Positions 19,591 to 42,816 of a DNA stretch of 43,145 nt are shown piece after piece; the stretch's first letter is position 1, and each line of letters begins with the position of its first letter. The stretch spans positions 1-43,145 of the forward strand of contig JABHVM010000007.1 of the NCBI GenBank assembly GCA_018658305.1, read 5' to 3'. Source of the DNA: Thiotrichales bacterium. Lineage in GTDB: Bacteria; Pseudomonadota; Gammaproteobacteria; GCF-002020875. Made by a program: the position numbers and the translations under genes. Under the pieces are notes generated by a model, which was not told where the DNA came from, ran no database searches, and was given only the letters and a program-made list of their open reading frames with translations.

Positions 19591-20580
19591 ATGAGTATCT
19601 TTCCGCAATGGATATCAAAACACTGGGGGAGTAGCGACAACTCAAGTGATGCGGAAGATGCTGGGGCAGTTGAGTTAATTTTAGCTGAGGTGGTTAACTC
19701 TATTGATCCTCTAATATCTCAATCACCTGGCTATCCTAAAAAATATATTCCTGCTCTACGGCAGGCACTAAGCTATATTGATGAGCTACTACAACAGGTG
19801 CCTGGACCCATAAAATTAGATAGAGAGAATTTTAGCAAGAGCCATTTAGTCCACGCTCTATTTGCCTCAACCAATGAGCTAGAGCGAGAGCTCCAAACTA
19901 GTATTGCCATGCGCGAATATAGATCTAGCGGTGAAGCGGAGATCTTTGCTCTAATGGGAGTGCGCTGGAAGTGGCAAGTTCACTTTGGGGTTGAGCGAAG
20001 TGGAGATAAAATACGCAGTGATGTCGCGCAAAATACTATAGACTTCAAGGATCATACATTTACTCTACCAACAGCTACTGCTGATGAGTGTTGGCAACAA
20101 CTACGAAATAACTTTGTAAAACGACTTGCTAACTCTATTGCTGAAAACATCAGAGAGCTGAAAACTGAACGAGATGATCTTAAACACAGCGCAAAACAGC
20201 TAGAGAGTAAATTGCGTAAAACATCTAAAGATCAAACATTAAAACTAGAGCAATCGCAACAGCGGGAAAAAATTGAGCAGTTATGGGGGCGCTGGAGAGA
20301 ACTTAATACTGAGTTAGATACTAACCATACGCTACAACATTTCAACTCTGTTATGAACTCCCCTAACAACTATCTTAGACTTGAGCAAGAGAGTGTCTCT
20401 ATAGACAAAATGGGTATAGAACGGAACACTAAAGATGGTGGAGAGTCGATAGATCTAGTCAACCTCTATAGTGCAGACCGCCGTATCTGGACATTTATGT
20501 TGGTAGAGTTTAAGTGGCAACCACCACTCTCTACAGCAGAACAGATTGCTGAAGATTCTCGTTGGTTGGAAATATCATAA
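19591..20580 (+). CDS. Hypothetical coiled-coil protein
   Basis: I do not recognise this 329-residue protein. It has no signal peptide or membrane helix. A helical N-terminal region (about 30-120) is followed by a hydrophilic, charged coiled-coil stretch (about 175-230, rich in Lys, Glu, Gln and Leu). The C-terminal beta-rich part contains the tryptophan-bearing segment RRIWTFMLVEFKWQP. It follows hemL by 14 bases and may be co-transcribed with it. Its end overlaps the convergent ctaA stop by six bases. The reading frame is long, uninterrupted and has the codon style of its neighbours, so it is a real gene. Confidence 0.75.
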   Translation: MSIFPQWISKHWGSSDNSSDAEDAGAVELILAEVVNSIDPLISQSPGYPKKYIPALRQALSYIDELLQQVPGPIKLDRENFSKSHLVHALFASTNELERELQTSIAMREYRSSGEAEIFALMGVRWKWQVHFGVERSGDKIRSDVAQNTIDFKDHTFTLPTATADECWQQLRNNFVKRLANSIAENIRELKTERDDLKHSAKQLESKLRKTSKDQTLKLEQSQQREKIEQLWGRWRELNTELDTNHTLQHFNSVMNSPNNYLRLEQESVSIDKMGIERNTKDGGESIDLVNLYSADRRIWTFMLVEFKWQPPLSTAEQIAEDSRWLEIS

Positions 20581-21615
20581 TCTATCACCACTATTCGATT
20601 GGTGATTCACTATATGATTAGCTGTTACAACGATTAACAGTAATAGTGCAGCAACTCCATTATGTGCCACAGCAACCCATAGAGGTAGTGAGAATATTAT
20701 ATTACTAATCCCCAACCCAACTTGAACTAGCAAAACTATCACTAATAGTTTACCTACATTTTGCAACTGTAACATCTTACTCTTAACCATCATCCAAGAT
20801 AGGAACAGAAGGTAGATAAAAACTAACAATGCCCCTATACGATGCAACATATGAATTGCAGTTCTCGCATCCGCATTTAGATGCCCACCCTCATAGTTCA
20901 CTCCCAACTCACTAACAATTGTAAAGGCCGATCTAAAGTCCATCTCTGGCCATCCATTCCCAGGATAACATCCAGGAAAGTCGATACAAGAGAGCGCCGC
21001 ATAGTTGGTACTAGTCCAACCACCTAGAGCAATTTGTAATAATACTAAAATTAAAGCTAGCAAAGAACTCTTCTGTAGTAGTTTTAAATTATCACTGCGT
21101 ATAGACTCACCAACAAACAACCTTCCCTGTCTTAATGCATACCACCAAAGCAGCGCTGTCGTAAACATCCCTCCCAGAAGATGGGCGGTAACTATAGCTG
21201 GCTGCACTAACAGGGTGACTGTCCACATTCCAAGCAGAGCCTGAAAAGATACCAATAGCAACAGAGCAGCGGGAAGTGCTAATTTCTGCTCAGGTTTTTT
21301 GCGTCTACGCCAAGACATTATAGCAATAGATAGAATAAGAAGACCTAAGGTTCCAGCAAAATAGCGGTGAACCATCTCTTTCCACGCCTTTTCAGGCTCA
21401 ACAACCTTACCTGGAAATTCACTCTCTACTCGCTTAAGCTCTATTAATGATTCAGGAACATCAATCTGTCCATAACATCCAGGCCAGTCAGGACACCCTA
21501 AACCAGCATCTGAGAGTCTAGTGTATGCCCCGAGCATTAACACTATTAATGCAAATAGCGTACTCCACTTAGCAACCAGTACTACCAACGATGTTTTTGA
21601 TGTTAAAATATCCAT
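20575..21615 (-). CDS. ctaA: Heme A synthase (COX15/CtaA)
   Basis: A 346-residue, eight-helix inner-membrane protein that oxidises the C8 methyl of heme O to the formyl group of heme A for the aa3 oxidase. The N-terminal signature TRLSDAGLGCPDWPGCYG carries the conserved cysteine pair. Heme-ligand histidines appear in the EMVHRYFAG, TAHLLGG, MLHRIGA and AVAHNG segments, two per four-helix half. I start it at the ATG at 21615. A TTG at 21633 would add six residues. TATAAT lies only 4 bases ahead of the ATG. The plus-strand gene's ATG (21617) is one base away, so the two start codons are back to back. Confidence 0.95.
   Translation of the reverse strand: MDILTSKTSLVVLVAKWSTLFALIVLMLGAYTRLSDAGLGCPDWPGCYGQIDVPESLIELKRVESEFPGKVVEPEKAWKEMVHRYFAGTLGLLILSIAIMSWRRRKKPEQKLALPAALLLLVSFQALLGMWTVTLLVQPAIVTAHLLGGMFTTALLWWYALRQGRLFVGESIRSDNLKLLQKSSLLALILVLLQIALGGWTSTNYAALSCIDFPGCYPGNGWPEMDFRSAFTIVSELGVNYEGGHLNADARTAIHMLHRIGALLVFIYLLFLSWMMVKSKMLQLQNVGKLLVIVLLVQVGLGISNIIFSLPLWVAVAHNGVAALLLLIVVTANHIVNHQSNSGDRL
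21601..21609 (+). promoter_or_regulatory. Extended -10 element before the subunit I-like gene
   Basis: TGTTAAAAT is an extended -10 (TGn plus TAAAAT). It ends 7 bases before the ATG at 21617, and no Shine-Dalgarno sequence intervenes. The element lies inside the first codons of the divergent ctaA. On the other strand a TATAAT lies 4 bases before the ctaA ATG. Confidence 0.45.
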
Positions 21616-21616
21616 T

Positions 21617-22987
21617 ATGATTATAGACTCCAATACCTCATTAATTGAAAAAGAGCTGCTCCGTGGATGGCTCTATTTAGCACTAGCATCTTTAGTAATT
21701 CCAGGTATCACCGCAATACTTCTAGTATTGCTAAGAACCATATCCATTGATGCTGCCGCTGGATGGGGCGATCTTTTTCGTGCTGCCTTAGTTATCCATG
21801 TGGATCTATCTGTATTTGTCTGGTTCATATCAATCGGTGGTATATTGTGGACTATAGATGGAGGCAGCTCACGCCTACCACAAAAGAGGGCTGCTCTGTG
21901 GATGATAGCTATAGGGTCTACAACAATATCTATATCTCCACTATTTGGCAATGCACAATCAATTCTTAATAACTATATCCCCGTAATAGACAACCCTATA
22001 TTTTTTACTGGGCTTATTTTAATATGGATTGGATTACTATTCACCTCTCTTCTACAACTATTTTCACCTAGCTCTAAGTTAGCTGGAAATATTGCTGCCA
22101 GCGCCGCACTATTATCTATTCTAGTATTGAGCGTAAGTTGGAGTGCGCTTAGCGATAATAAGATAGACCACTTCTATTTTGAACAGCTTTTTTGGGGGGC
22201 TGGACATACTCTTCAATTTGTCTACACTCTACTCCTACTAATCAGTTGGAATATTATCTCCAAACACCTCGAACTTATGGTGTGGCTAACGCCACCTCGA
22301 TTTAACTTTTTGATGATTTTAGGAGCTCTACCTCTCATATATATACCTTGGCTATATTTACAGTTTAATCCATTAGCTGCAGAGATTACCGTAGGTTTTG
22401 CACAACTAATGCGCTATGGTAATGGAGTTGCTCCAGGAGTAATGGGGATACTCCTACTTAGCGCAATTTACACCAAGATAAGGGTAAAGAAAACAGAGAC
22501 GAGGGGGAGATGGATTAATGATCCAGCAAGCCCTATAAATGCTGCGCTCTACTCATCTATGACTCTCTTTGCTGCAGGAGGAGTAGTCTCCATCTTTATC
22601 TCTGGAATCAATACAATCATCCCTGCACACTATCACGGTTCAATTGTTGGCATAACTCTATCTTTTATGGGACTCATCTATCTCCTTTTGCCACGGCTTG
22701 GATTTTCTGTGCCTACTGGAAGAATAGCCACCTTCCAGCCATATATCTATGCGTTAGGACAAATGATGCATATTGCTGGGCTCGCACTGAGCGGCAGTGA
22801 GGGTGCACAGAGAAAAACTGTAGGGGTTAGCGCAGATTCAATAAACAGCATTACAGAACAGGCTGGAGTATTCTTAACCAGAAGTGGCGGTTTAATTGCA
22901 GTTGCGGGAGGAATACTATTTCTTATCGTCTGTTGGCGTGCTATCCGTATCGGCAGGACCACAATCACCACAACTACTATTTCTTAA
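21617..22987 (+). CDS. Heme-copper oxidase subunit I-like membrane protein lacking the CuB His pair
   Basis: A 456-residue protein with about twelve hydrophobic helices, related to heme-copper oxidase subunit I. H61 (helix II), H197 in WGAGHTLQFVY (helix VI) and H338/H340 in PAHYHGS (helix X HxH) match the low-spin heme, one CuB and two heme ligands. The adjacent His-His of helix VII, the other two CuB ligands, is not present: residues about 228-255 contain no His. The Tyr four residues after H197, used for the His-Tyr crosslink, is also absent. It may bind hemes but probably does not reduce oxygen as a normal oxidase; sensing, NO chemistry or assembly are possibilities. The start was chosen by the extended -10 and the family-like N-terminus. 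Confidence 0.7.
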   Translation: MIIDSNTSLIEKELLRGWLYLALASLVIPGITAILLVLLRTISIDAAAGWGDLFRAALVIHVDLSVFVWFISIGGILWTIDGGSSRLPQKRAALWMIAIGSTTISISPLFGNAQSILNNYIPVIDNPIFFTGLILIWIGLLFTSLLQLFSPSSKLAGNIAASAALLSILVLSVSWSALSDNKIDHFYFEQLFWGAGHTLQFVYTLLLLISWNIISKHLELMVWLTPPRFNFLMILGALPLIYIPWLYLQFNPLAAEITVGFAQLMRYGNGVAPGVMGILLLSAIYTKIRVKKTETRGRWINDPASPINAALYSSMTLFAAGGVVSIFISGINTIIPAHYHGSIVGITLSFMGLIYLLLPRLGFSVPTGRIATFQPYIYALGQMMHIAGLALSGSEGAQRKTVGVSADSINSITEQAGVFLTRSGGLIAVAGGILFLIVCWRAIRIGRTTITTTTIS

Positions 22988-23212
22988 TGAGTTATAAAAA
23001 CAGTTCATCGCAACAGATGCACCTAGAACTAACCAAACAGTAGCTATTAAAATAGCGTACGCCTGCATTCTAAATGTACCTGGATCAACATTGAGATTAA
23101 ACATCTCTACAGCGTCTGCTGGATCAAAAAAAGTAAAGAGCAGAAAAGTAATCGCCAAAGCAGTTAGACCACTCGTCCATGCCACACCTATTGCACACTG
23201 TCTTAATTTCAT
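22916..23212 (-). CDS. Small two-helix membrane protein
   Basis: A 98-residue protein with two transmembrane segments (about 8-30 and 48-70), ending in a hydrophilic tail with CGDCG. A perfect AGGAGGT lies 5 bases before the ATG, so it is surely translated. It sits 29 bases after ctaB in the oxidase operon and may be a small oxidase subunit or assembly factor, perhaps metal-binding through its cysteines. I know no family for it. Its last 24 codons overlap, on the opposite strand, the 3' end of the subunit I-like gene by 72 bases. Confidence 0.7.
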   Translation of the reverse strand: MKLRQCAIGVAWTSGLTALAITFLLFTFFDPADAVEMFNLNVDPGTFRMQAYAILIATVWLVLGASVAMNCFYNSLRNSSCGDCGPADTDSTPTDDKK

Positions 23213-23241: not shown

Positions 23242-24207
23242 TTAGCTTGATACTAGATGGAATACCACTCTAACATAGTGATCAACTAACAAAAATCCAA
23301 ACAACATACTAAGATAAATTATTGAGTATGCAAAAGTCTTCATCGCTGCTCGATCTGGGTTTTCTGAGCGATACAGACTAATCGCAAACCATAAAAATAC
23401 AACACCGAGCGCTATTGCACCAGATAGATAGATAAGCCCACTCATCTCTATGGCAAACGGAAGTAGGGTGACAGATATCAACATTACCGTATAGAGAAGA
23501 ATCTGCTGTTTGGTAAAATCTACTCCATGAGTTACTGGCAACATTGGGATATTTGCTTTTGCATACTCCGCGCGCCGTTTAATTGCTAACGCCCAAAAAT
23601 GGGGCGGAGTCCAGATAAATATAACCAAAAACAGGAGTAGTGCCTCTAGATGAATCTCTCCTGTAACTGCAACCCAACCAAGTACAGGTGGAGTTGCTCC
23701 AGCAGCACCACCCCATACTATATTTTGTGGTCCAACTCTTTTTAGATACATTGTATAGATAACAGCATATCCAATCAGTGAGATTAAAGTTAACACTGCG
23801 GTTAAGATATTCACAAAAAGCAGCAATAGAACCATAGATATAACACCTAACGAAAGTGCAAACACTAAAGCTGAGTTTCTATCAACATCTCCTTGTGGAA
23901 GTGGGCGATTCTCGGTACGAGCCATAAGTCCATCAATATGCTCATCAATAATTTGATTAATCGCAGCACCTGATGCCGCAGCAAGACCAATTCCTAAAGT
24001 TCCAAAAATAAGTGCATTCCAAGGTGGTAACCCCGTAGATGTTGCCAACAACATTCCTACCACTGCAGTAAATAGAATTAAATATACAACTTTAGGCTTA
24101 GTTAGCGCGTAATATTGACGCCAATTAGCTTTTTTTCTTTCAACTACTGCTTCATGTTCACTATTATCATTATCAACTGTTATACTACTCAATGTCCACC
24201 ACCCCAC
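23242..24207 (-). CDS. ctaB: Protoheme IX farnesyltransferase (heme O synthase)
   Basis: A UbiA-family prenyltransferase that adds a farnesyl group to heme B to give heme O, the substrate of CtaA. The diagnostic loop [19 protein letters not shown] (about 85-105) has both aspartates and the basic residues that bind farnesyl diphosphate. The second loop, [20 protein letters not shown], is also present. There are about nine membrane helices. The frame allows a GTG at 24207 or a TTG at 24192. The TTG overlaps the upstream TGA (TTGA) and has GGTGG ahead, so it may be the true start, giving about 316 residues. Confidence 0.95.
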
Positions 24208-24827
24208 TTATTAACTTTTAAAAGTAATTCCATATCACTCAATACATCCTTCGACGGCTGCTCTGGTAGATAGTGCATCATTAAGTTACCCATTGGATCT
24301 ACTATATAGAGATGTCCAATAGAACTTTCACCAGCTGGCACAAACTGCTCTCTTAATGGAGCAACACTTTGTGCATCACCTACTACAACCTTAGTTCCTC
24401 CAAATTGCTCCATAAATTTAGAAAAGTCTGTTGCTGGAGATAGCGAAGAAAATATCACTACCCTCCTAATCTCTCCATGATTCTCTGCCATTGCCTTACG
24501 AATCTGGCGCATATCATAAATTCTTTTACGACAAGGCTCATCACAACTATCCCCTTCCGAGAGCATCAAAGTCCAGTACCCATCTAAATCTGCGCGTGAA
24601 AAACTACCGCCATCTATCGTAGAGAATATCTGATCTGGAATTGGATGCACAGGCTGAACCAACTCCCCTAAATTAGAGCGCGAGCTCGGCAACAGCCCTG
24701 GATTGAGATAGAGCACCCAAGCACCGAGCATAGGAAGTCCAAACACTGTCAATAGAACTAAGAGCTGCTTAGCACCGCTCCCTTTTCTACTATTACCACC
24801 ATTATCACTATCACTATCACCACTCAT
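24189..24827 (-). CDS. Sco-like cytochrome oxidase assembly protein
   Basis: From the ATG at 24827 the product is 212 residues: a Ser/Asp/Gly-rich cytoplasmic head, one membrane helix (about 20-40) and a periplasmic thioredoxin-like domain. CDEPC matches the CxxxC copper motif of Sco proteins. The conserved Sco histidine is not in its usual place; the nearest match is the His in [14 protein letters not shown]. It is the conserved hypothetical gene usually found after SURF1 in gammaproteobacterial cox operons, probably for copper or thiol handling at CuA. The ATG overlaps the surf1 stop (ATGA), which fixes the start. Confidence 0.82.
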
Positions 24828-25555
24828 TCCAATATTTCCTTTCTCTGTTTTATTACTATAGCAATCCAACCACCAATTATTAGCAATGCAAACGCAAACC
24901 ACTGTAGAGCATACCCATAATGCATACTTGCATCACTATCTCTCTCCTCAACACTCCACTCTCTAATTAGCCGATCTCTGTCTGGATAGTTCTGCCTTAC
25001 CACAAATGGAAGCATCTCCTTACCAATCGACTCTCCCACCAGCTTTAAATCTATATACAGTCTAAGATCACTATCCGAGATCTCATCTAATCTAAATCCA
25101 TTAGTGACTGGCACTCTAACTAAGCCTCTGATAATATTCTCACCATCCGCTAGCGGCACCAACGGTAAAGTATCTCTAGACTCCCCTTGTGAAACCCAAC
25201 CTCTATTTACTAAGAGCGCTCTATCACTTCCAAATATTGCAAGTGGAGTCATAACGTAGTAACCAGCTTTACGCTTCAATTTACGATTATCTAAAAAAAA
25301 TTGTCCTTTACCAATAAAAGTCCCAATAACCTCAACCTCTCTATAGCGCACAAAATCCAGATCTAACTCATCACCTTTAAGGCTAATTAGCTCTTTATCA
25401 ACGCTCAGAGCGAGCTCCTCTGCCACACCCTCTTTCCCTGCAGCTCTATCTAATTGCCAGAATCCTAACCACAAAAAAAGAACAACTAATGAAAGCAGTA
25501 ACAGAGAAGCTACGACCCCTAACCATCGAGGGCGTACTACGGCAGAATCATCCAC
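24824..25555 (-). CDS. SURF1 family cytochrome oxidase assembly protein
   Basis: A 243-residue protein with a membrane helix at each end and a periplasmic domain between them, the SURF1 layout. The first helix ends in the family motif LGFWQLDRA. NRGWVSQG and a C-terminal helix with YALQWFAFALLI are also typical. SURF1 helps insert heme a into subunit I. It starts 4 bases after the DUF2909 gene and its stop overlaps the next start, so it is tightly embedded in the oxidase operon. Confidence 0.93.
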   Translation of the reverse strand: MDDSAVVRPRWLGVVASLLLLSLVVLFLWLGFWQLDRAAGKEGVAEELALSVDKELISLKGDELDLDFVRYREVEVIGTFIGKGQFFLDNRKLKRKAGYYVMTPLAIFGSDRALLVNRGWVSQGESRDTLPLVPLADGENIIRGLVRVPVTNGFRLDEISDSDLRLYIDLKLVGESIGKEMLPFVVRQNYPDRDRLIREWSVEERDSDASMHYGYALQWFAFALLIIGGWIAIVIKQRKEILE

Positions 25556-25559
25556 AAAC

Positions 25560-25799
25560 TTAATTGGTAGGTGTTGAGCCAGCTATAGATGGCGTAAGGG
25601 AGTTTGGTTCAATAACATTAAAAATAGCCCCGAGAATCAATATAGCGAACAAAATAAGGGAGAGAATGATACGAAAAGTAAGTGCTTTAACAACTCGATC
25701 TCCGCTACCATCATCTTTCGCAAGAAAAAACATACCGCTAGCTAATGAGAGCACAATCAGCCCCATTATAATCATAACTGGTAATTTCATTATTTCCAT
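25560..25799 (-). CDS. DUF2909 twin-transmembrane protein
   Basis: A 79-residue membrane protein with two helices (about 5-26 and 42-63) joined by a short charged loop (AKDDGSGDRVVKALTFR). This matches the twin-transmembrane DUF2909 family found between ctaE and surf1 in gammaproteobacterial oxidase operons. Function is unknown; position suggests a small assembly or stabilising subunit. GGAGA lies 7 bases ahead of the ATG at 25799. Confidence 0.85.
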   Translation of the reverse strand: MEIMKLPVMIIMGLIVLSLASGMFFLAKDDGSGDRVVKALTFRIILSLILFAILILGAIFNVIEPNSLTPSIAGSTPTN

Positions 25800-25823
25800 A
25801 TCATAATCTCCGTTTTAAATTCA

Positions 25824-26690
25824 TTACATCCAATAGACTAAGATGAAGAGCCCTAACCATACTACATCGACAAAATGCCAATACCATGCCGCCGCCTCGA
25901 ATGCAAAATGGTTCTCTTCAGTAAAGTGCCCTTTCATACTTCTACCTAATACTGCTGATAACATCAGTGCCCCCACAATTACATGGAAGCCATGAAAACC
26001 AGTCAACAGATAGAATGTAGATCCATAAATCCCTGACTCTAAAGTTAAATTAAGCGTACTATAAGCATGCATATATTCTACAGCCTGCATTATTACAAAT
26101 ATAATACCTAGAGCAACCGTCAACATTAAGCCATTAACTAGCTGTTTCCTGTTCTCTTTCTTAAGCCCCCAATGTGCCCATGTTAAGGTCAATCCAGAAC
26201 TTAAAAGAATTGCAGTATTAATAGCTGGAACTCCCCAAGTATCAACTAAAGCAAAATCACCACCCAAATTACTTGGTCCAGCAGTTGGCCATTGTGAAAC
26301 AAACTGACTAGTAATAAACTCATTAGTTGCCTCTAAATATCCAGTTCCTCCTAACCAATCAACTGAAATATTGCGGACATAATATAGTGATCCAAAGAAA
26401 GTGGCAAAGAAGAACACCTCTGAAGATATAAACCAGAACATTCCCTGTCTAAATGAGTCATCTACCTGTGAGTTATACTTCCCAGTCATATTTTCCTCGA
26501 CAACATCACCAAACCAGCCGAAGAACATATAACCCAATAAAACAAATCCGACAACAATCAGAAACGAGCCGATACCAACCCCATTAATTGCTAATGCTGA
26601 TCCCATCAGAATGCTAAAGATAGCTAACATTGCCACTATCGGCCACTTACTTGGCTCAGGTATATAGTATTGATCTGGTGAAGTAGACAT
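25824..26690 (-). CDS. ctaE: Cytochrome c oxidase subunit III
   Basis: A 288-residue, seven-helix subunit III of the aa3 oxidase, an inner-membrane component that stabilises the catalytic core and the proton-uptake path. Markers include RQGMFWFISSEVFFFATFFGSLYY (about 82-105), with the conserved Glu in helix III, the GFHGFHVIVGALM segment and the terminal AAAWYWHFVDVVWLGLFI. AGGAGG precedes the ATG. It follows ctaG by 78 bases, a gap that contains a 12-bp-period repeat. Confidence 0.97.
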   Translation of the reverse strand: MSTSPDQYYIPEPSKWPIVAMLAIFSILMGSALAINGVGIGSFLIVVGFVLLGYMFFGWFGDVVEENMTGKYNSQVDDSFRQGMFWFISSEVFFFATFFGSLYYVRNISVDWLGGTGYLEATNEFITSQFVSQWPTAGPSNLGGDFALVDTWGVPAINTAILLSSGLTLTWAHWGLKKENRKQLVNGLMLTVALGIIFVIMQAVEYMHAYSTLNLTLESGIYGSTFYLLTGFHGFHVIVGALMLSAVLGRSMKGHFTEENHFAFEAAAWYWHFVDVVWLGLFILVYWM

Positions 26691-26738
26691 TATTTTTTCC
26701 TCCTGTAATTGTAACTCATTATATATTAATAAAATTAT

Positions 26739-26762
26739 CTGTTAATACGACTGTTAATAAAA
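26739..26762. repeat. Two-copy 12-bp-period repeat between ctaG and ctaE
   Basis: CTGTTAATACGA (26739-26750) and CTGTTAATAAAA (26751-26762) are directly adjacent and agree at 10 of 12 positions. The repeat lies in the gap after the ctaG stop codon. No hairpin or other function is apparent. Confidence 0.5.
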
Positions 26763-26768
26763 TACCAC

Positions 26769-27347
26769 TTAACTTCCTGCAACATCATACTTTGCTGCAG
26801 AGTTCTTATCGGTATTCAAAAAAGTATAAGAGAGGTTGAGTACCGAAATATCTTTAGGTAACTCATTAGACACATAAAACCGTAGTGGCATCTCTTTACT
26901 CTCTCCCGCTTTTAGTGGCTGATTACTAAAACAGAAACACTCCATCTTATGAAAAAAACCATTAGCAAACCAAGGTGTTACACTTGGGATCGCCTGACCA
27001 ACAATATCTTCATCAGAGAGGTTTTTAACCAAAAAACTAACTTCTGTAATCTCTCCAGGATGAACCTTTACCTCTCTAGTTAATGGCTTAAATTTCCATG
27101 GTAACCCATCATTTACCGTAGTATCAAATTGCACTGTTACCTGTCGACTATTATCTATTTCAGCACTACTTTCAGAGAAAATCTCTCCACTATTTTTTAG
27201 TCCTGTAACTTGACAGTAGAGGTTATAGAGGGGTATTAGAGCAAACCCAAAACCAAACATACCAATCACTAACCCAACCAGCAGCAGACTAGTCTTACGG
27301 TGCTTTTTCTCTATCTTTTCACCTAATTGTTGTTTTGAATCACTCAT
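26769..27347 (-). CDS. ctaG: Cytochrome c oxidase assembly protein CtaG/Cox11
   Basis: A 192-residue periplasmic copper chaperone with one N-terminal membrane helix (about 20-42). It delivers copper to CuB in subunit I. PLYNLYCQVTGL follows the helix, and the copper motif CFCF is in FFHKMECFCFSNQPL near residue 137. Length is normal for the family. It follows the 43-residue peptide gene by 14 bases in the oxidase operon. Confidence 0.95.
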   Translation of the reverse strand: MSDSKQQLGEKIEKKHRKTSLLLVGLVIGMFGFGFALIPLYNLYCQVTGLKNSGEIFSESSAEIDNSRQVTVQFDTTVNDGLPWKFKPLTREVKVHPGEITEVSFLVKNLSDEDIVGQAIPSVTPWFANGFFHKMECFCFSNQPLKAGESKEMPLRFYVSNELPKDISVLNLSYTFLNTDKNSAAKYDVAGS

Positions 27348-27361
27348 AAATTAAATTGTAG

Positions 27362-27493
27362 TTATGGTAGAGCTGTAGCTGCCAATTTCTCCCAAAAACG
27401 AACTGAGGAGAGTGCAACCAATATCGCTAAACCAGCCAATATCAGAGCCAAACGACGGTTACCTTTTTTAGCTTCACGCTCTTCATTATCCAT
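27362..27493 (-). CDS. 43-residue single-helix oxidase-associated peptide
   Basis: A short frame between ctaD and ctaG encodes 43 residues. A charged head (MDNEEREAKKGNRR) is followed by one hydrophobic helix (LALILAGLAILVALSSV) and a short RFWEKL tail. Its ATG is one base after the ctaD stop (TAA-T-ATG), so it is translationally linked. Small single-helix proteins called cytochrome oxidase small assembly proteins are known at this position in other proteobacteria. Positive residues at the N-terminus put the tail in the periplasm. The role is inferred from position. Confidence 0.75.
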   Translation of the reverse strand: MDNEEREAKKGNRRLALILAGLAILVALSSVRFWEKLAATALP

Positions 27494-27494
27494 A

Positions 27495-29141
27495 TTAAGA
27501 ACCTGCATATTTTGCATTCGCATCAAGTTTAGGCGCTTCAACCCAAGAGTGATATGGAGGTGGAGATGGTAGATCCCACTCTAATCCATTATCTTTAGCC
27601 CCTTCCCAAACCTGAGCAGTAGCTTTCTCAAGTTTCTTACTACGAATTGTATCGATAACAATATAGAGTAGAATAAGATGGCTAAGACCAAATATAAATG
27701 CACCAATACTAGATATTACATTAAATTCAGTAAACTGCACACTGTAATCAATAATACGGCGCGGCATTCCTGCAAGCCCTAGGAAGTGCTGTACAAAGAA
27801 AGTCATATTGAAGCCAATAATATTAGTCCAGAAGAATAGTTTACCTAACCTCTCGTTATACATTTTTCCTGTCCATTTAGGAAGCCAGTAGAATACTCCA
27901 GCAAATAGGGCCAATACTGCACCAGGCACCAGAACATAGTGAAAATGAGCAACCACAAACATCGAGTCGTGATACTGCATATCTGCTGGAATTACTGCCA
28001 ACATTACTCCTGTTAAACCACCAAAAACAAACATAATTACAATAGAGACTGCAAATAGCATTGGGGTCTCAAATGTTAATGATCCTCTCCACATAGTAGC
28101 AATAAAGTTAAACTTCATTAGTCCGACTGGAATAGAGATCAGAATTGTTCCGATCATAAAGTAATTTACTGCACCATACGACATTCCGATAGTGTATTGA
28201 TGATGTGCCCAGACCACCATTCCTAGCGTTCCAAGGAAAATCATAGAGCCTACGAGAGACATATATCCAAACAGTGGCTTGCGTGAGAAAGTTGGAATCA
28301 CCATAGAGAGGACTCCAATAGATGGTAACAACAGAACATAAACTTCTGGATGACCAAAGAACCAAAATAGGTGCTGGAATAGTACTGGATCTCCGCCACC
28401 TGCCGCATCAAAGAAGCTAGTCCCGAAGTGACGATCAAAAAGTAACATCGTAACTCCTCCAGCCAATACAGGAACCACCAAAATAAGTAAGAATGCTGTC
28501 ACCAACCAAGTCCATACAAACATAGGCATCTGACTCATTTTCATTCCTGGTGCACGCATATTAAATATTGTTACAATAATATTAATAGATGCAAGTACTG
28601 ATGAAATACCTAGCAGATGAATTGCAAAGATCAAGAAATCCATCGACATACCTACCTTAATCGATAGTGGAGGATAGAGTGTCCAACCTGTATTAATCTG
28701 AGTTCCACCACCAGGGAAGAATGGCACCACAAAAGATAGAATCAGCATAGTTGCTGCAGCTGGAAGAATCCAGAAGCTTAGATTATTCATCCGTGGTAAC
28801 GCCATATCTGGTGCACCAATCATCATTGGAATCATCCAGTTAGCCAATCCTGCTGCTGCTGGCATAACTGCTCCAAAGATCATAATCAATGCGTGATTGG
28901 TTACAATATTATTATATAGATCCGGCTCTAAAAGTTGAATACCTGGAAACATAAGCTCCATTCTAATCACCATAGCACTCAAACCGCCCAAGAAGAGCAT
29001 TACTAAGGCAAATATTAGATACATAGTTCCAATATCTTTATGGTTGGTACTATAAACCCAACGCTTCCAACCCTTCATCGGTCCATGATCATCATGCGCA
29101 TCATGCGCGCTATCCATTGTCTCTACTGCAGTTGAACTCAT
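27495..29141 (-). CDS. ctaD: Cytochrome c oxidase subunit I (aa3-type)
   Basis: The 548-residue catalytic subunit reduces oxygen at heme a3/CuB and pumps protons. All metal ligands are present: H83 (helix II), GHPEVY at 263-268 with the His-Tyr pair and the type A1 glutamate, HH at 313-314, and HxH in VVAHFHYV. The K-channel and D-channel regions look normal, so this is an A-type proton-pumping oxidase. I start at the ATG at 29141, with TTGGAGAA just ahead; a TTG at 29156 is less likely. The N-terminal extension is rich in His and Asp ([11 protein letters not shown]). Confidence 0.98.
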
Positions 29142-29156
29142 TATATTATTCTCCAA

Positions 29157-30341
29157 TTATCGTGCTGCTTTAACAGCAGAAGGTTGAACCACATCACCAG
29201 TGGCATTGCCCCAGGCATTACGCTCATAAGTTACAATGGCTGCAATCTCAAGATCAGACAACATCTTCCACGCAGGCATAGTATCTTTACCATTGAGTAC
29301 CATCTTAATATGCTCTTCTATCGATCCAACCACAATCTTACTTCCACGCAATGGTGGGAAAGCAGGAGGTAGGCCAGATCCATCTGGTCTATGACAGGCA
29401 GAACATTTAGTATTATAAGCGCTCTCTCCTTTAGTGTAGAGCTCTTCCAGTGTCCACTCTTTCAAAGAATTTGCCTCAATTAGTGAAGCTAGTAGTGCAT
29501 CCTTCTTCTTCTCAATCCAAGCCTCAAACTCTGCAGGTGTTACCGCTTTAATAACGATAGGCATTTTTGAGTGCCAAGTTCCACAAAGCTCTGCACACTG
29601 CCCACGATAAGTGCCCGTTTTATCTGCGTCAATTTTAGCCCAAGTCTCCATAACATAACCAGGAATTGAGTCTCTTTTAAAGCCCAGCTCAGGAACCCAC
29701 CAAGCGTGTAGAACATCAGCCGAGGTATTTAGGTAGCGAATAGTGCGCCCAACAGGAAGCACTATGGGATTATCTACATCACGCAGATAGTGCTCTCCTG
29801 AAGTCTCCTTGTCAGTTGGACGACTCTCTACTGTAATTGGGTAAAATTCTCCATCATATTCCACCCCATACTCTGGAAATTCATACTCCCACCACCATTG
29901 ATGAGCAATAATTTTAACATTCATATCAAAACAACGATCTGGATCTGCTCCCTCATCTGAACAGAACTGTTTAGGTGCATTCCAGAAACGCTCTAGCGTA
30001 GATTGTGCCGAGCCTGCAATGGTCAAATCCACCATCAACACCATCGTTGGAACCATCACCCACGACCAGCGCCCAAACCATCCCTTATGAAAATTTTGAT
30101 CCGCTTTATACCCCTTACTCTTTCTAAAAGTAAATAGAATATATACCATAAATACCATTACAACTGCCAACAACCAAGTAGCAATCTCCATAGTCAGCAT
30201 ATGCACATCATAGATATCTTTACCAATCCTAGTAACTGGATCAGGGAAATTTAGTCCATATTCAGCCATAACATCCATAGCACCAAGCCAAAGCCCAGTA
30301 AACAGCAACACGAACCCGCCTCTTTTCCACATTCCGTTCAT
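29157..30341 (-). CDS. ctaC: Cytochrome c oxidase subunit II with fused cytochrome c
   Basis: A 394-residue subunit II. It has a signal peptide, two membrane helices (about 49-71 and 94-112) and a cupredoxin domain whose CuA ligands are H212, C249, C253, H257 and M260. A C-terminal class I cytochrome c domain has CSACH at 313-317 and a Met ligand in the DTMPAWKM segment. The fusion makes this a caa3-type enzyme that can take electrons directly from small carriers. An extra Cys pair (C127, C137) lies in a short insertion after the second helix. AAGGAT precedes the ATG. It is the first gene of the oxidase operon. Confidence 0.97.
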   Translation of the reverse strand: MNGMWKRGGFVLLFTGLWLGAMDVMAEYGLNFPDPVTRIGKDIYDVHMLTMEIATWLLAVVMVFMVYILFTFRKSKGYKADQNFHKGWFGRWSWVMVPTMVLMVDLTIAGSAQSTLERFWNAPKQFCSDEGADPDRCFDMNVKIIAHQWWWEYEFPEYGVEYDGEFYPITVESRPTDKETSGEHYLRDVDNPIVLPVGRTIRYLNTSADVLHAWWVPELGFKRDSIPGYVMETWAKIDADKTGTYRGQCAELCGTWHSKMPIVIKAVTPAEFEAWIEKKKDALLASLIEANSLKEWTLEELYTKGESAYNTKCSACHRPDGSGLPPAFPPLRGSKIVVGSIEEHIKMVLNGKDTMPAWKMLSDLEIAAIVTYERNAWGNATGDVVQPSAVKAAR

Positions 30342-31369: not shown

Positions 31370-32740
31370 ATGTCTGAAAAAAACATATCAGAAAATATAA
31401 CCAAAATTAATGCTAATAGTCCAGCACTAGATATTCCAACTCCAAATCTAGATGAACTAGAGAAAGGACCATGGCCTAGCTATGTATCAGGACTAAAACG
31501 GTTAGCCGCTAGTGGTGCCCATAACGCAGATATGATGCGTGGAGTGATCGGCACCCTAGAGCAGTCTTTTGTTAACCGTAGAGGTTACTGGAAAGGTGGA
31601 ACAGTTGGAGTTATCGGATATGGGGGCGGAGTAATTCCTCGTTTTTCTGAACTTAAAGATGATAACGGTGAGACTATGTACCCAGCGGCACTGGAGTTTC
31701 ACACGGTGCGTATTCAACCACCATGGGGCAACCACTATAGCGCAGATCTACTGCGTAAAATGTGTGATGTCTGGGAAGATACCGGTACTGGGCTTATTGG
31801 TCTGCACGGACAATCTGGCGATATTATGTTCCAGGGAACAGATACGGAAGGGGTACAGTCAGCCTTTAACCAGCTCAATGATGTAGATACATTTAAAGAT
31901 CTTGGTGTAGATGGGTTCTGTTTTGATATGGGTGGAGCGGGACCAGCGGTTCGTACTTCAGTATCTTGTGTAGGTGCAGCTCGTTGTGAACAGTCATGTT
32001 TCAATGAGGGCGACTTAATGCAGTCTACCATTAATGAGTTCTTAGATGATATGCATCGTCCAGCTCTTCCATACAAAATGAAGTGGAAGTTTTCAGGATG
32101 CCCAAATGATTGCACCAATGCGATTCAACGCGCAGATATGGCAGTGATCGGAACTTGGCGTGATGATATCAAAATAAACCAAGATGGGTGGAAAGCTTTT
32201 GTTGCAGATAAGGGTATCAAGCATGTCTTTGATAATGTAATCAGCCGCTGCCCAAGTCAGTGTATGGAGATGGCAGAAGATAACTCTCTAACAATCGGCA
32301 ATAAAGAGTGTGTAAAATGTATGCACTGCATAAATGTACTATCTTCAACTAGCCAGAAATATGTTGGTAAAGATGGCGATGCCATTCTTGCACAAGGTGA
32401 TGATAAAGGAATCACTATCTTAATGGGTGGAAAAAGAACCCTTAAAGTTGGCGACCTCTTCGGTACAGTTATCGTGCCATTTATGAAGATGGAGACAGAG
32501 GAAGATAAAGAGAAATTCCTAGAGATCTCTGGCGACCATGTAGATTTCTTCGCAGAGAATGCACTAGAGCATGAGCGCTCTGGAGAGATGATAGAGAGAA
32601 TTGGTCTCCCAGCATACCTTGAGGCGATGGATCTAGAGGTTGACCCAAATATGATCTCAGTACCTCGTACTTCACCTTATGACCGTATGGATGATTGGGA
32701 TGATGAGGTTGCGAAGTGGGAAGAGAGAAAGAGCGCGTAA
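31370..32740 (+). CDS. dsrA: Reverse dissimilatory sulfite reductase, alpha subunit
   Basis: The 456-residue alpha subunit of the cytoplasmic DsrAB enzyme, which in sulfur oxidisers forms sulfite from DsrC-bound sulfur. The siroheme-[4Fe-4S] ligands fit CX5C (CVGAARC, near residue 203) and CX3C (CPNDC, near 244). An inserted ferredoxin domain has CPSQC and CVKCMHC. It is longer than the roughly 420 residues usual for the A. vinosum protein, with extra residues at the N-terminus and near 175 and 325. AAGGAG precedes the ATG. Arg codons are mostly CGT, as expected for high expression. dsrB follows after 65 bases. Confidence 0.98.
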   Translation: MSEKNISENITKINANSPALDIPTPNLDELEKGPWPSYVSGLKRLAASGAHNADMMRGVIGTLEQSFVNRRGYWKGGTVGVIGYGGGVIPRFSELKDDNGETMYPAALEFHTVRIQPPWGNHYSADLLRKMCDVWEDTGTGLIGLHGQSGDIMFQGTDTEGVQSAFNQLNDVDTFKDLGVDGFCFDMGGAGPAVRTSVSCVGAARCEQSCFNEGDLMQSTINEFLDDMHRPALPYKMKWKFSGCPNDCTNAIQRADMAVIGTWRDDIKINQDGWKAFVADKGIKHVFDNVISRCPSQCMEMAEDNSLTIGNKECVKCMHCINVLSSTSQKYVGKDGDAILAQGDDKGITILMGGKRTLKVGDLFGTVIVPFMKMETEEDKEKFLEISGDHVDFFAENALEHERSGEMIERIGLPAYLEAMDLEVDPNMISVPRTSPYDRMDDWDDEVAKWEERKSA

Positions 32741-32805
32741 TCGCCTTACCTCTTAAAAAATAGAGTATTAATTAAAATTAAACATATAGTAACTGGAGAA
32801 TAATT

Positions 32806-33879
32806 ATGGCACAAGCACCCCGCATGCCGGAAGAGACTGGTGTACCAAGCGCAACCCCGTTTATGCACCCAATTATGCAAGATAACTACGGAGAGTGGAA
32901 GTTCCATGACCGTCCACGCCCAGGTGTACTTCATCATGTAGCTAAATCAGGTGACGAGATTTGGAGTGTAAGATGTGGTACTCAGCGTCAGATGGATCTA
33001 TATTTAATCCGTATGTTGGCAGATATTGCAGATGAGTATAGTGATGGTTTTCTCCGTTTTACTACTCGTAATAATGTCGAGTTTCTCTGTAAAGATGAGA
33101 GTCGTATTGCTCCACTAATTGAGCGTTTAACAGAAGAGGGTCTACCTGTCGGTGGTACTGGTCCATCTATCACAAGTATCTCCCATACACAGGGCTGGAT
33201 GCATTGTGATATTCCAGGAACTGACGCCTCTGGCGCAGTAAAGGCTTTGATGGATGAGTTGCACGAAGAGTTTATTCGTGAAGAGATGCCTAACCGTGTA
33301 AAAATAACTTCATCTTGCTGTCAGATTAACTGTGGTGGACAGGGTGATCTTGCTATTAACATTCAGCATACTAAGCCACCAAAAATCAACCATGACCTAG
33401 TTTCAGGTGTCTGTGAGCGCCCAACTGTGGTTGCTCGTTGTCCGGTAGCTGCGATTCGTCCAGCTATGGTTAATGGTAAGCCTTCACTAGAGGTTGATGA
33501 GAAAAAATGTGTCTGTTGTGGCGCATGTTTCCCACCATGTCCTCCAATGTTGATCAATGATCCAGAGCACTCAAAACTAGCAATCTGGGTTGGTGGTAAG
33601 CACTCAAATGCTCGTAGTAAGCCTATGTTCCATAAGTTAGTTGCTGCTGGTATTCCTAATAACCCACCACGCTGGCCTGAGGTTGGTGAAGTTGTTAAGA
33701 AGATTCTTGCAGTCTATAAAGAAGACGCTAGAGATTGGGAGCGTATGGGTGAGTGGGCTGATCGTATCGGCTGGCCAACATTCTTTGAGAAGACAGGTCT
33801 TCCATTCACAAAATACCATATTGATACATGGCGTGGATCTACGGCTCGTCTGAACGCTTCAGCACATATCCATTTCTGA
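32806..33879 (+). CDS. dsrB: Reverse dissimilatory sulfite reductase, beta subunit
   Basis: A 357-residue subunit that pairs with DsrA as alpha2beta2. The cluster-binding SSCCQINCGGQGD segment (near 167-179), a further Cys in VVARCPVAAIRP, and a ferredoxin domain with CVCCGACFPPCPP are in the expected order. Length and sequence are close to rDsrB of phototrophic and chemotrophic sulfur oxidisers. A 146-base gap to dsrE follows, with TATAGA repeated at a 12-base spacing (33882, 33894) and no clear terminator, so transcription probably continues. Confidence 0.98.
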   Translation: MAQAPRMPEETGVPSATPFMHPIMQDNYGEWKFHDRPRPGVLHHVAKSGDEIWSVRCGTQRQMDLYLIRMLADIADEYSDGFLRFTTRNNVEFLCKDESRIAPLIERLTEEGLPVGGTGPSITSISHTQGWMHCDIPGTDASGAVKALMDELHEEFIREEMPNRVKITSSCCQINCGGQGDLAINIQHTKPPKINHDLVSGVCERPTVVARCPVAAIRPAMVNGKPSLEVDEKKCVCCGACFPPCPPMLINDPEHSKLAIWVGGKHSNARSKPMFHKLVAAGIPNNPPRWPEVGEVVKKILAVYKEDARDWERMGEWADRIGWPTFFEKTGLPFTKYHIDTWRGSTARLNASAHIHF

Positions 33880-34025
33880 TCTATAGATTAATGTATAGAG
33901 TAAGTGGCAGTTAACTAGTTTATACTTGAACTTACGCTTTAATGGTCGTCTTAATAGACTTATAGAGCGTGTTAAGTAATAAGCTAGTTGGTTGCAGATA
34001 TTTTTTTGACGAAAGGACTACTTAA

Positions 34026-34418
34026 ATGAAAATTTCAGTACAGATAAATGAAGGACCCTATCAGCATCAATCGTCTGATAGCGCCTATAATTTTGTAAAA
34101 GCAGCATTGGATAAGGGACATGATATTGTACGTGTCTTCTTTTATCATGATGGGGTAAACAACGGGACTCGCTTAGCAAGTCCTCCACAAGATGATCGAA
34201 ATGTGCAGCAGCGTTGGAGTGATCTCTCTAAAGAGCACAATCTTGATCTCGTTATCTGCGTAGCAGCAGCACAACGCCGCGGTATTGTGGATGATGGTGA
34301 GGCTGAGCGTAATGGAAAAGACGCAACCAATATTATGGATGGTTTCCATATATCTGGTCTTGGTCAGTTAATTGAAGCCGCTGTAGAGTCAGATCGATTA
34401 GTTGTTTTTGGCGATTAA
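34026..34418 (+). CDS. dsrE: Sulfur-carrier protein DsrE
   Basis: The 130-residue subunit of the cytoplasmic DsrE2F2H2 hexamer, homologous to TusD. Cys78 lies in LDLVICVAAAQRRG at the position known to carry persulfide sulfur in A. vinosum, where the complex passes sulfur from TusA to DsrC. AAAGGA precedes the ATG. Presence of dsrEFH is the accepted sign that the dsr system runs in the oxidative direction. Three heptad-like repeats overlap its stop codon. Confidence 0.96.
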   Translation: MKISVQINEGPYQHQSSDSAYNFVKAALDKGHDIVRVFFYHDGVNNGTRLASPPQDDRNVQQRWSDLSKEHNLDLVICVAAAQRRGIVDDGEAERNGKDATNIMDGFHISGLGQLIEAAVESDRLVVFGD

Positions 34419-34433
34419 CGATTGACTATTAAG
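34413..34433. repeat. Heptad repeat at the dsrE 3' end
   Basis: GATTAAC (34413), GATTGAC (34420) and TATTAAG (34427) are three consecutive 7-base units. They resemble the AATTAAC heptads near the ABC gene and contain the dsrE stop codon. It is short and could be chance. Confidence 0.35.
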
Positions 34434-34455
34434 CAGAGTTACTAGGAGAGTTAAA

Positions 34456-34866
34456 ATGGCAGGCGAAATTAAACAGTTTTTGTATGTTAACCGTAAGGCA
34501 CCTTACGGTACAGTATATGCACTTGAATCATTAGAAGTTGTTCTAATTGGTGCAGCTTTTGATCAAGATGTAAGGCTACTATTTATGGATGATGGAGTAT
34601 TTCAGATCAAAAAAGATCAGAATACAGAAGCATCAGGATTAAAGAATTTTTCACCAACTTATAATGCGTTAGGTGATTATGATGTGAATAAGATCTATGT
34701 CTCAAAAGAGTCTCTCGATGAGAGAGGGTTGACCCAAGATGATCTTATGCCATTAGTTTATGAAGATGAAGATGATGATTGGGCTGAAAAGTCCTCCATT
34801 AAAATTGTCTCTGCCGATGAGATCCGTGATCTTATGGAAGGCAGCGATGTTGTTCTTAGCTTCTAA
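34456..34866 (+). CDS. dsrF: DsrF, subunit of the DsrEFH sulfur-transfer complex
   Basis: The 136-residue TusC homologue forms the DsrEFH hexamer with DsrE and DsrH. It keeps the fold motifs RKAPYGTVYALESLEV and LFMDDGVF. It has no cysteine, in keeping with a structural rather than sulfur-carrying role. A Glu/Asp-rich stretch (YEDEDDDW, near 106) precedes the C-terminal strand. AGGAGAG lies ahead of the ATG. Confidence 0.95.
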   Translation: MAGEIKQFLYVNRKAPYGTVYALESLEVVLIGAAFDQDVRLLFMDDGVFQIKKDQNTEASGLKNFSPTYNALGDYDVNKIYVSKESLDERGLTQDDLMPLVYEDEDDDWAEKSSIKIVSADEIRDLMEGSDVVLSF

Positions 34867-34907
34867 GTATAGATTATCATAAGATTTTAAAGTAGAGGAT
34901 TATAATT

Positions 34908-35195
34908 ATGTTACATATTGTAAATAAATCACCTTTTGAGAAAGACTCTTTCACCTCATGTATGCATCATGCAGCAGCGGATAGCACGGTTATATTGATT
35001 GAAGATGGCGTCTACGCAGCTCTAAAGGGAAGTGCGGTTGAGGGAGATCTCTCAAAAGCTAAAGTTGTTGCATTAAGCAGTGATGTTGCCGCACGAGGGA
35101 TTGAAGGGAATATTGCTGATGGAGTTGATCTAGTTGATTATGCAGGATTTGTAGATCTAGTTACCGATGGTAACGGAGTGCAGTCCTGGGTTTAG
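34908..35195 (+). CDS. dsrH: DsrH, subunit of the DsrEFH sulfur-transfer complex
   Basis: The 95-residue TusB homologue. The single cysteine, C18 in FTSCMHHA, sits close to the Cys20 position known for A. vinosum DsrH. The conserved IEDGVYAAL segment is near residues 36-44. It completes the DsrEFH complex with the two preceding genes. Two TTAGTTG heptads lie between it and dsrC. Confidence 0.95.
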   Translation: MLHIVNKSPFEKDSFTSCMHHAAADSTVILIEDGVYAALKGSAVEGDLSKAKVVALSSDVAARGIEGNIADGVDLVDYAGFVDLVTDGNGVQSWV

Positions 35196-35208
35196 TTGAA
35201 AAGGTTGT

Positions 35209-35222
35209 TTAGTTGTTAGTTG
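35209..35222. repeat. Tandem TTAGTTG heptads between dsrH and dsrC
   Basis: TTAGTTG occurs at 35209-35215 and again at 35216-35222. GTTAATT, the complement of AATTAAC, follows directly. A third TTAGTTG is at 35192-35198, across the dsrH stop codon. Confidence 0.4.
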
Positions 35223-35256
35223 GTTAATTTGTTTTTTTATTAGATAGGAGAGTGTT

Positions 35257-35592
35257 ATGCCTAGTATGGACGTAAATGGAAATGCAGTTGAGGTTGATGA
35301 AGAGGGTTACCTTGCAGATATCAACGATTGGAACAAAGAGATTGGTTCAGCTCTAGCAGTAACTGAAGAGATCGAATTGACTGATGCTCATTGGGAAGTT
35401 ATTGACTTCCTTCGTGAGTATTATGACGAGTACCAGATTGCACCAGCAGTACGAGTACTTACAAAAGCTATCGGCAAAAAGTTAGGTAAAGATAAAGGTA
35501 ACAGTAAATATCTTTATGAGCTCTTTCCTTACGGACCTGCAAAACAGGCTTGTAAGGTTGGTGGATTACCAAAACCTACAGGCTGTATTTAA
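35257..35592 (+). CDS. dsrC: DsrC sulfur-carrier/substrate protein
   Basis: A 111-residue TusE/DsrC protein. The flexible C-terminal arm reads ACKVGGLPKPTGCI: two cysteines in the CX10C arrangement with the second penultimate. This pair defines true DsrC, which presents sulfur to DsrAB as a trisulfide or persulfide and is reoxidised or reduced by DsrMK. GATAGGAGAG precedes the ATG. A 236-base gap with possible regulatory signals separates it from dsrM, so it may be both the end of one transcript and a highly expressed gene. Confidence 0.98.
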   Translation: MPSMDVNGNAVEVDEEGYLADINDWNKEIGSALAVTEEIELTDAHWEVIDFLREYYDEYQIAPAVRVLTKAIGKKLGKDKGNSKYLYELFPYGPAKQACKVGGLPKPTGCI

Positions 35593-35694
35593 AATTTAGC
35601 CCAGACACCGCTTGACCGTCTCAATTGCTCTGTTAAAAAGTAGTTTTTGTACTTGTGACAGTTAGGTGGAGTCTGAACTAAAATTTGCTTAAAG

Positions 35695-35704
35695 TTAGTC
35701 AGGT
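35695..35704. promoter_or_regulatory. Inverted match to the dsr repeat, upstream of dsrM
   Basis: TTAGTCAGGT is the exact reverse complement of ACCTGACTAA, the first repeat unit after the dsr promoter (30979-30988). It lies mid-way in the 236-base dsrC-dsrM gap, just before an AT-rich stretch with TATAAA that could be a -10. The rest of the gap holds no gene and no clear terminator. A shared regulator acting at both places is inferred. Confidence 0.4.
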
Positions 35705-35828
35705 TATTTTTTATATAAAATATTTTTAACCTTAACTAAATGTAAAGATTCAGATTTCAGAGATGAGCTGAATAGTTACAATTAAATAACTTATTGTTTT
35801 ATAAACTACTGCGGAGTTGATCGGTACT

Positions 35829-36593
35829 ATGTTAACCGGACTATTTGCTACACTATTTTATCTGGCTACTGCTATTTTGGTGGTCGGTGTTACGCGGAGG
35901 GTTGTCGGCTATTGGCAGACACCAGCTCCCCTTAAAATTCCTACTATGCCAGCCCCTCGTACACAAGGCGGGATGGTATATCGCATGGCCCGAGAGGTCG
36001 TGCTATTTGAGAGTCTATTCAAAGCTAATAAATGGATCTGGATATTTGGCTGGGTTTTTCATATGGCTCTCCTTCTAGTGGTTATGCGCCACTTTAGATA
36101 TTTTCAAGAGTCAGCTTGGTTCTGGGTCAATATTGTACAACCATTTGGCAAATATGCTGGTTTTGCAATGATATTTGGTCTAGGTGGACTGCTAGCTCGT
36201 CGTTTTGTAGTTGAGAGGATTCGCTACATTAGTACACCATCTGATTATCTTATGTTAGTTCTACTGCTTGGAATTGGAGTGAGTGGAATGATGATGACTA
36301 TGGTCTTCCATACAGACATTATTGCAGTTAAAGAGTTTATGTTAGGAGTTATGGTTTTCGATTTTAGCCATGAGATGCCAGCTGATCCTTTAGTTATTAT
36401 CCATTTCTCATTGGTTATTTTGTTGATGATAATATTCCCTATTAGTAAGTTAATGCATGCACCAGGAATATTCTTTAGTCCAACGCGTAACCAAATTGAT
36501 GATTCTCGTGAAAAACGCCATGTTGCCCCATGGGCAGGTGAGCTAGATGCTGCGTCACTCAGAGCTGAGTCACAGCAAAGTGGGGAGAAATAG
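35829..36593 (+). CDS. dsrM: DsrM, cytochrome b subunit of the DsrMKJOP complex
   Basis: A 254-residue NarI-like membrane protein with five to six helices. Histidines at about 78, 88, 161, 181, 192 and 210 include the probable ligands of the b hemes. It joins the cytoplasmic DsrK to the quinone pool. I start at the ATG at 35829, which has CGGAG 12 bases ahead. A TTG at 35817 is in frame but falls directly on that ribosome-binding site. dsrK begins two bases after the stop. Confidence 0.93.
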   Translation: MLTGLFATLFYLATAILVVGVTRRVVGYWQTPAPLKIPTMPAPRTQGGMVYRMAREVVLFESLFKANKWIWIFGWVFHMALLLVVMRHFRYFQESAWFWVNIVQPFGKYAGFAMIFGLGGLLARRFVVERIRYISTPSDYLMLVLLLGIGVSGMMMTMVFHTDIIAVKEFMLGVMVFDFSHEMPADPLVIIHFSLVILLMIIFPISKLMHAPGIFFSPTRNQIDDSREKRHVAPWAGELDAASLRAESQQSGEK

Positions 36594-36595
36594 AG

Positions 36596-38188: not shown

Positions 38189-38283
38189 AGTTAAAGACGA
38201 TACCCGATAAAGTAGTATTTTAAGCAATATAGTTGTATTTAAGTAAAGTTAATTAAATTAGATTAAAGATAGGAGCATCCAAA

Positions 38284-40266: not shown

Positions 40267-40348
40267 TATTTTATCTCATCCTTAAAAGATTATTTAGTGG
40301 TTTTAGATTATTAATTGATGACGATAAGTTTAGATAACAGGATTATGC

Positions 40349-40771
40349 ATGTTGATAGATAGATTGAAAGTACGGATAGCTATTGTAAGCGTAGTGTTAG
40401 GAGCACTCTTTGCGACCTCATTTATGGCACAAAGCCAGAGCGACGCTGAAAATAGTAGTTCTGCTCTAAACAAGCAGGTAACTACTGGCGAGAGCTGTGT
40501 AAAAGATACTTCTTGGATGCGTCGCAACCATATGGAGCTGTTGAAGCATGATCGTGATCGTACTCTGCGTCAAGGTATTCGCCCAGTTGATGGCAGCATT
40601 AAAGAGTGTGTCAACTGTCATGCTACTAAAGATGATCATGGTCAACAGCTCTCAATCAATGCTGAGGGTGAGTTCTGTGCAGGATGCCACAGTTTTGCTT
40701 CAGTAAGTATCGACTGTTTTGATTGTCACTCCACCAAACCCGAAGAGTCAGTAGTGGGGACGCGCAGATGA
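40349..40771 (+). CDS. dsrJ: DsrJ, triheme cytochrome c
   Basis: A 140-residue periplasmic cytochrome with an uncleaved or signal-type N-terminal helix (about 8-27). Three heme sites are CVNCH (87-91), CAGCH (110-114) and CFDCH (123-127). C50, in GESCVKD, is the candidate for the unusual cysteine heme ligand reported for DsrJ. It is part of the membrane complex DsrMKJOP. dsrO begins inside its stop codon (ATGA). Confidence 0.95.
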   Translation: MLIDRLKVRIAIVSVVLGALFATSFMAQSQSDAENSSSALNKQVTTGESCVKDTSWMRRNHMELLKHDRDRTLRQGIRPVDGSIKECVNCHATKDDHGQQLSINAEGEFCAGCHSFASVSIDCFDCHSTKPEESVVGTRR

Positions 40772-41568: not shown

Positions 41569-41586
41569 ACTTTAAGGAATTATAAG

Positions 41587-42801: not shown

Positions 42802-42816
42802 GAGGTTGAACCCTAT

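Follow-up and report, generated by a model that had tools for sequence, protein, structure and literature searches.

The locus and the predicted protein

The window, which is the whole 43,145-nucleotide stretch of DNA that was analysed, contains a cytochrome caa3 oxidase gene cluster into which, just as the initial annotation had described it, a single gene has been set on the opposite strand; it lies between ctaA and a 98-amino acid ORF. The genes concerned are:

20575-21615, minus strand: ctaA (heme A synthase), divergent from the target gene; Pfam COX15-CtaA, E 1.9e-77
21617-22987, plus strand: the target CDS, encoding a copper-less heme-copper-oxidase-like protein with 12 transmembrane helices (ORF, Pfam COX1, AlphaFold2, Foldseek)
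22916-23212, minus strand: ORF of 98 amino acids, convergent with the target and overlapping its 3' end; two helices, no Pfam match
23242-30341, minus strand: caa3 cluster of ctaB, an SCO1-like gene, SURF1, coxC, cox11, ctaD and coxB, the last with a C-terminal CxxCH

The target ORF runs from an ATG at 21617 to a stop at 22987 and encodes 456 amino acids. Its start codon and that of ctaA lie one base apart (21613-21619), so that each promoter has to be sited within the neighbouring gene, unless the actual starts are elsewhere. A 95-amino acid homologue of the 98-amino acid ORF occupies the corresponding position in the nearest relative (L014, 7406-7693). From 31370 to 43145, the order and sizes of the ORFs suggest a reverse-dsr sulfur-oxidation operon, with putative dsrAB, EFH, C, M, K, L, J, O, P and N genes named by reading the ORFs.

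Searched against Pfam up to an E-value of 1, the target matched COX1 only (E 1.4e-7; 31.2 bits, slightly under the cut-off of 34.8) and not NnrS (PF05940), while some of its homologues exceed the COX1 cut-off, reaching 62.6 bits. No family, including the oxidase and NO-reductase models, was found in NCBIfam up to the same E-value; a PDB sequence search with the target protein alone gave a chance match only, and the plasmid and PHROG searches gave none. The AlphaFold2 model (pLDDT 85, pTM 0.89) has the 12 transmembrane helices of a subunit I of the heme-copper oxidase superfamily, and Foldseek placed a ba3 oxidase first, with a TM-score of up to 0.74 and a probability of 1.00 against ba3, bo3, aa3, cbb3 and cNOR structures alike.

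Metal-ligand positions

The positions at which hemes and copper are bound in this superfamily were compared across an alignment of 141 homologues, in which some rows may represent one genome obtained through two collections, so that the independent sequences number somewhat fewer than 141. The positions of interest are:

21797-21799, plus strand: H61, helix II, low-spin heme ligand position; 141/141, aligned with the His of CtaD, NorY, CcoN and NorB
22181-22183, plus strand: E189, start of helix VI, family-specific acidic residue; Glu in 134 and Asp in 7 of 141, Arg in NorY
22205-22207, plus strand: H197, helix VI, first CuB/FeB His position; 141/141, aligned in all heme-copper oxidase groups
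22214-22219, plus strand: Q200-F201; Q200 in 141/141 and common to NorY, F201 at the position of the cross-linking Tyr
22352-22357, plus strand: L246-Y247, helix VII, expected CuB His-His site (by alignment)
22409-22411, plus strand: M265, helix VIII, invariant and family-specific; 141/141, not Met in other groups
22628-22636, plus strand: H338-Y339-H340, helix X, high-spin and low-spin heme ligand positions; both His in 141/141
22769-22771, plus strand: H385, helix XI, invariant and family-specific; 141/141, Phe, Leu or Met in NorY and Thr in CtaD

Thirteen residues -- R40, H61, N119, Y120, W193, H197, Q200, M265, H338, H340, H385, R399 and K400 -- are invariant in all 141 sequences. By position, H338 corresponds to the ligand of the high-spin heme, and H61 together with H340 to those of the low-spin heme, so the histidines that mark both heme sites in the superfamily are all in place, as had been noted at first reading. 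The copper site is another matter. Of its three histidines only that of helix VI is retained; the helix VII His-His, present in nearly every aligned heme-copper oxidase outside the family, is here a Leu/Ile-Tyr pair: none of the 141 sequences has His at position 246, and at position 247 there are 102 with Tyr and only 21 with His. The Tyr of helix VI whose cross-link characterises the A- and B-type O2-reducing oxidases is likewise absent, position 201 being Phe in 136, Tyr in 3 and Leu in 2. The reported loss of the His pair and of the Tyr is a property of the family and not just of this one gene, a pattern well outside what chance would produce. The dN/dS of the family is about 0.1, as estimated from one unsaturated pair, and this value and the invariant ligands together indicate selection on the heme sites and loss of the copper site, and rule out decay across the family.

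The initial annotation had gone on to propose a two-heme protein with no copper site. Conservation, fold and tree all fit this proposal; the copper-free part has to be qualified, since H197, one of the three copper ligands, is still there and a different metal site may be present.

Family, ancestry and distribution

In HHalign comparisons NorY was the top match of the family, at 99.8% (E 3.6e-28 over 437 columns), with CtaD at 33%, CcoN at 3% and NorB at 1%. The maximum-likelihood tree gives the same picture, with the family as a single clade (100/100) on a long branch, grouped with NorY (100/99) as its sister and not nested within it. Replacement of the Tyr by Gln is the mark of eNOR and by Asn that of sNOR (Table A4, PMC8756737), and the sNOR operon has been described as norSY-senC-orf1 (PMC4940428). 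The NorY proteins aligned here read GHSSQQ, with Gln at the Tyr position and the helix VII His-His present, and they are called sNOR-like by their operon only, because that Gln is the eNOR mark. The target, with Phe for the Tyr and with two of the three CuB histidines gone, has the features of neither.

Membership in a characterised oxidase family was looked for, then, and what was found was a separate clade beside NorY. A literature search returned no description of the family; the paper that defines eNOR, sNOR, gNOR and nNOR lay outside its scope. Judged against these libraries and this literature, the sequences indicate a novel variant of the superfamily that belongs to no named oxidase or NO-reductase family.

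The gene is far from peculiar to the genome of the window. Protein searches found the family in 47 of the 369 genomes sampled from the class and in 58 of 398 genomes of a sample of the phylum. A scan of the genome contig collection with the target protein alone returned nothing, an alignment-based profile being required; with that profile, at least 574 family loci were confirmed. The best 80 of these, that is, the most similar and not a random sample, were used to study context; they come mostly from Gamma- and Betaproteobacteria, with a few from Magnetococcales, Nitrospirae and Gemmatimonadales. Isolates with the gene include Simplicispira hankyongi NY-02 (L134) and Herbaspirillum sp. ST 5-3 (L105). 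A second branch (L168, L172, L173 and L175) shows 30-35% identity, with longer ORFs and different surroundings.

Genomic context

Two arrangements are the commonest among the 80 loci. In one, norS, norY, ctaB, senC, a cytochrome b/FeS gene, p167 and the target homologue follow each other on one strand; in the other, the target homologue lies antisense to ctaA or ctaB, or within a caa3 cluster, so that the antisense placement seen in the window recurs in other genera. Mapped on the family tree, the context labels require 30 changes, against 44.6 in shuffles and a least possible number of 3; labels scattered in this way imply that contexts have been switched repeatedly. In two relatives of the window's genome, the gene stands in clusters together with a nirN/nirS-like gene and with nirJ, the latter scoring above its NCBIfam cut-off.

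Two further kinds of gene were seen in these surroundings. A protein combining cytochrome b, 4Fe-4S and FlpD domains (L017, 6857-8428, and homologues) is frequent in the norSY-like operon and would be an unusual electron-transfer module adjoining a CuA enzyme. Elsewhere, a diverged second CtaA-like protein of 301 amino acids (L015, 14336-15241) is paired with a normal CtaA, and other genomes in the set have comparable pairs.

Co-occurrence with nitrite, NO and oxidase genes

Forty genomes with the family were compared with 40 without it, all hand-picked for completeness and for spread over many family codes. Cytochrome cd1 (PF02239) was found in 30 of the 40 with the family and in 2 of the 40 without it (Fisher p 6e-11), and NorY in 24 and none (p 8e-10); the tests treat the genomes without phylogenetic correction, so that kinship is ignored in both values. 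CtaD is about equally common in the two sets (35/40 vs 30/40, p 0.25), for which reason a role tied to the aa3 oxidase alone has been set aside as the main reading: the presence of the family tracks cytochrome cd1 and NorY, not CtaD. NorB of the cNOR type (E < 1e-90) was found in 14 of 40 vs 4 of 40. A link to NirK was considered and rejected, NirK scoring above its cut-off in none of the genomes with the family and in five of those without it. The association with NO is not absolute, since 7 of the 40 family-bearing genomes gave no match for any of cd1, NorY or cNOR/qNOR.

In the genome of the window the only heme-copper proteins detected are CtaD, CcoN and the target. Its contig C68 carries a nirS-like cd1 ORF with c-type and D1 domains, cut by the contig end, along with a nirF-like gene and, by the ORF sequences only, apparent nar genes. 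This genome is 95% complete, and a missing NO reductase could lie in the unsequenced part; its nearest family-bearing relative (G005) has cd1 genes as well, and no match to NorY or NorB.

Possible functions

With relatives in hundreds of bacteria, mostly near NO and oxidase genes, the target is probably a working NO-related protein and not a broken oxidase. The initial annotation had listed a sensor, an NO-related enzyme and an assembly factor, a list that narrows in favour of NO, since the family co-occurs with cd1 and NorY and belongs to norSY operons, with assembly still in contention. As read from the sequences, the role that we tentatively put first, though somewhat short of an even chance, is NO handling by a NorY paralogue that has two hemes and no copper. 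The clusters with nirJ and a nirN/nirS-like gene in two relatives, and the qNOR-like gene of G270, a family-bearing genome with no match to CtaA, CtaD or NorY, speak for it too. On this reading a diverged protein of the NorY type (B-family, Tyr-less) has lost its copper site, and strong purifying selection has preserved its two heme sites. We infer that the bis-His low-spin heme (H61/H340) would take up electrons and hand them to the heme on H338, which would be five-coordinate; NO could bind there, with H197 and Q200 lining the pocket. NO might be held, scavenged or slowly turned over there during NirS-type nitrite reduction, and the neighbouring heme-A/O enzymes, sNOR-like or caa3, would be protected or assisted. 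Against NO handling stand the frequency of oxidase-biogenesis genes among the neighbours and the fact that no electron-donor subunit adjoins the target in the window beyond those of caa3.

Those neighbours give the principal alternative, a factor that helps to assemble heme-A/O oxidases and sNOR-like enzymes, its best footing. The oxidase fold would have been put to a second use, in taking up, holding or passing on heme A or heme O, or in serving as a template for subunit I. Of the 46 loci with full flanks, 36 have SCO within 5 kb, 24 CtaB, 22 NorSY, 11 CtaA and 9 Cox genes, and it is these frequent SCO, CtaB and CtaA neighbours that make such a role possible; CtaA also lies within 5 kb, with no Cox or NorSY genes, at 18 of the 80 loci, CtaA is found in 39 of 40 family genomes vs 29 of 40 controls, and the family adjoins operons of both A-type and B-type oxidases. 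Yet many genomes with CtaD and CtaA do without the family (30 of the 40 controls have CtaD), one that has it (G270, with a qNOR-like gene) gave no match to CtaA, CtaD, NorY or any heme-A-type oxidase, and the link to cd1 would be left unexplained. We regard this alternative as rather unlikely.

A membrane sensor of NO or O2, in which the high-spin heme would signal to a partner, is less probable again. Crp/Fnr-type regulators occur near 19 and hemerythrins near 21 of the 80 loci (the domains of the seed proteins were checked), and across 139 loci there is a weak signal of upstream FNR-type boxes, with 3 perfect boxes vs 0.03 expected and 7 of at least 9/10 matches vs 1.7 expected, both by mononucleotide shuffle. 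However, such boxes are rare and none lies upstream of the target in the window, the target has no output domain, and no partner gene is common to all loci. A membrane NO reductase that works with hemes only, having neither CuB nor FeB, is about as doubtful; were the target such an enzyme, it would be the sole NO-reducing member of the superfamily in the window's genome.

In many Beta- and Gammaproteobacteria the gene closes the norSY operon, which speaks for an electron-transfer or heterodimer subunit of an sNOR-like complex, but the window's genome and 15 others of the 40 have the family and no NorY, and we consider this quite improbable. A decaying oxidase pseudogene, to which the missing Tyr and CuB ligands might have pointed, is rejected for the family by its hundreds of homologues, invariant ligands and low dN/dS.

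What defines the superfamily is its heme-copper (or heme-FeB) centre, and a large, strictly conserved lineage that has given this centre up and retained the two heme sites would offer a natural experiment on the purpose of the second metal. The family may mark an unrecognised NO-handling step in sulfur-oxidising and denitrifying Proteobacteria. Surveys of denitrifiers could count its members, which give weak COX1 matches, among the oxidases or NO reductases.

Comparison with known systems

An ordinary oxidase and a cNOR or qNOR are both rejected on the ligands, the profile scores and the selection found. CcoN, subunit I of the cbb3 oxidases, has the superfamily fold and heme ligands in common with the target, which differs in having no helix VII His pair, and the HHalign score of 3% is not significant. 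The cNOR (NorB) and qNOR enzymes share the fold, the heme ligands and the NO context. Their FeB is bound by three His and a Glu, whereas the target has neither the helix VI Glu nor the helix VII His pair, and its match to the NorB profile is not significant. Among PDB entries, the closest by structure and by profile are the ba3 cytochrome c oxidase of Thermus thermophilus and the oxidase of PDB entry 7deg, at 16-17% identity, from which the target again differs in lacking the CuB His pair and the Tyr. By profile, tree and operon alike, the nearest relative is NorY, the subunit I of the B-family sNOR encoded by norSY-senC-orf1, at about 22% identity. Both proteins have R40, H61, H197, Q200, H338 and H340, and both are without the Tyr; NorY retains the helix VII His-His, and so all three CuB ligands, with Gln at the Tyr position, whereas the target has Leu/Ile-Tyr and Phe at these places, and E/D189, M265 and H385 are invariant in its family only.
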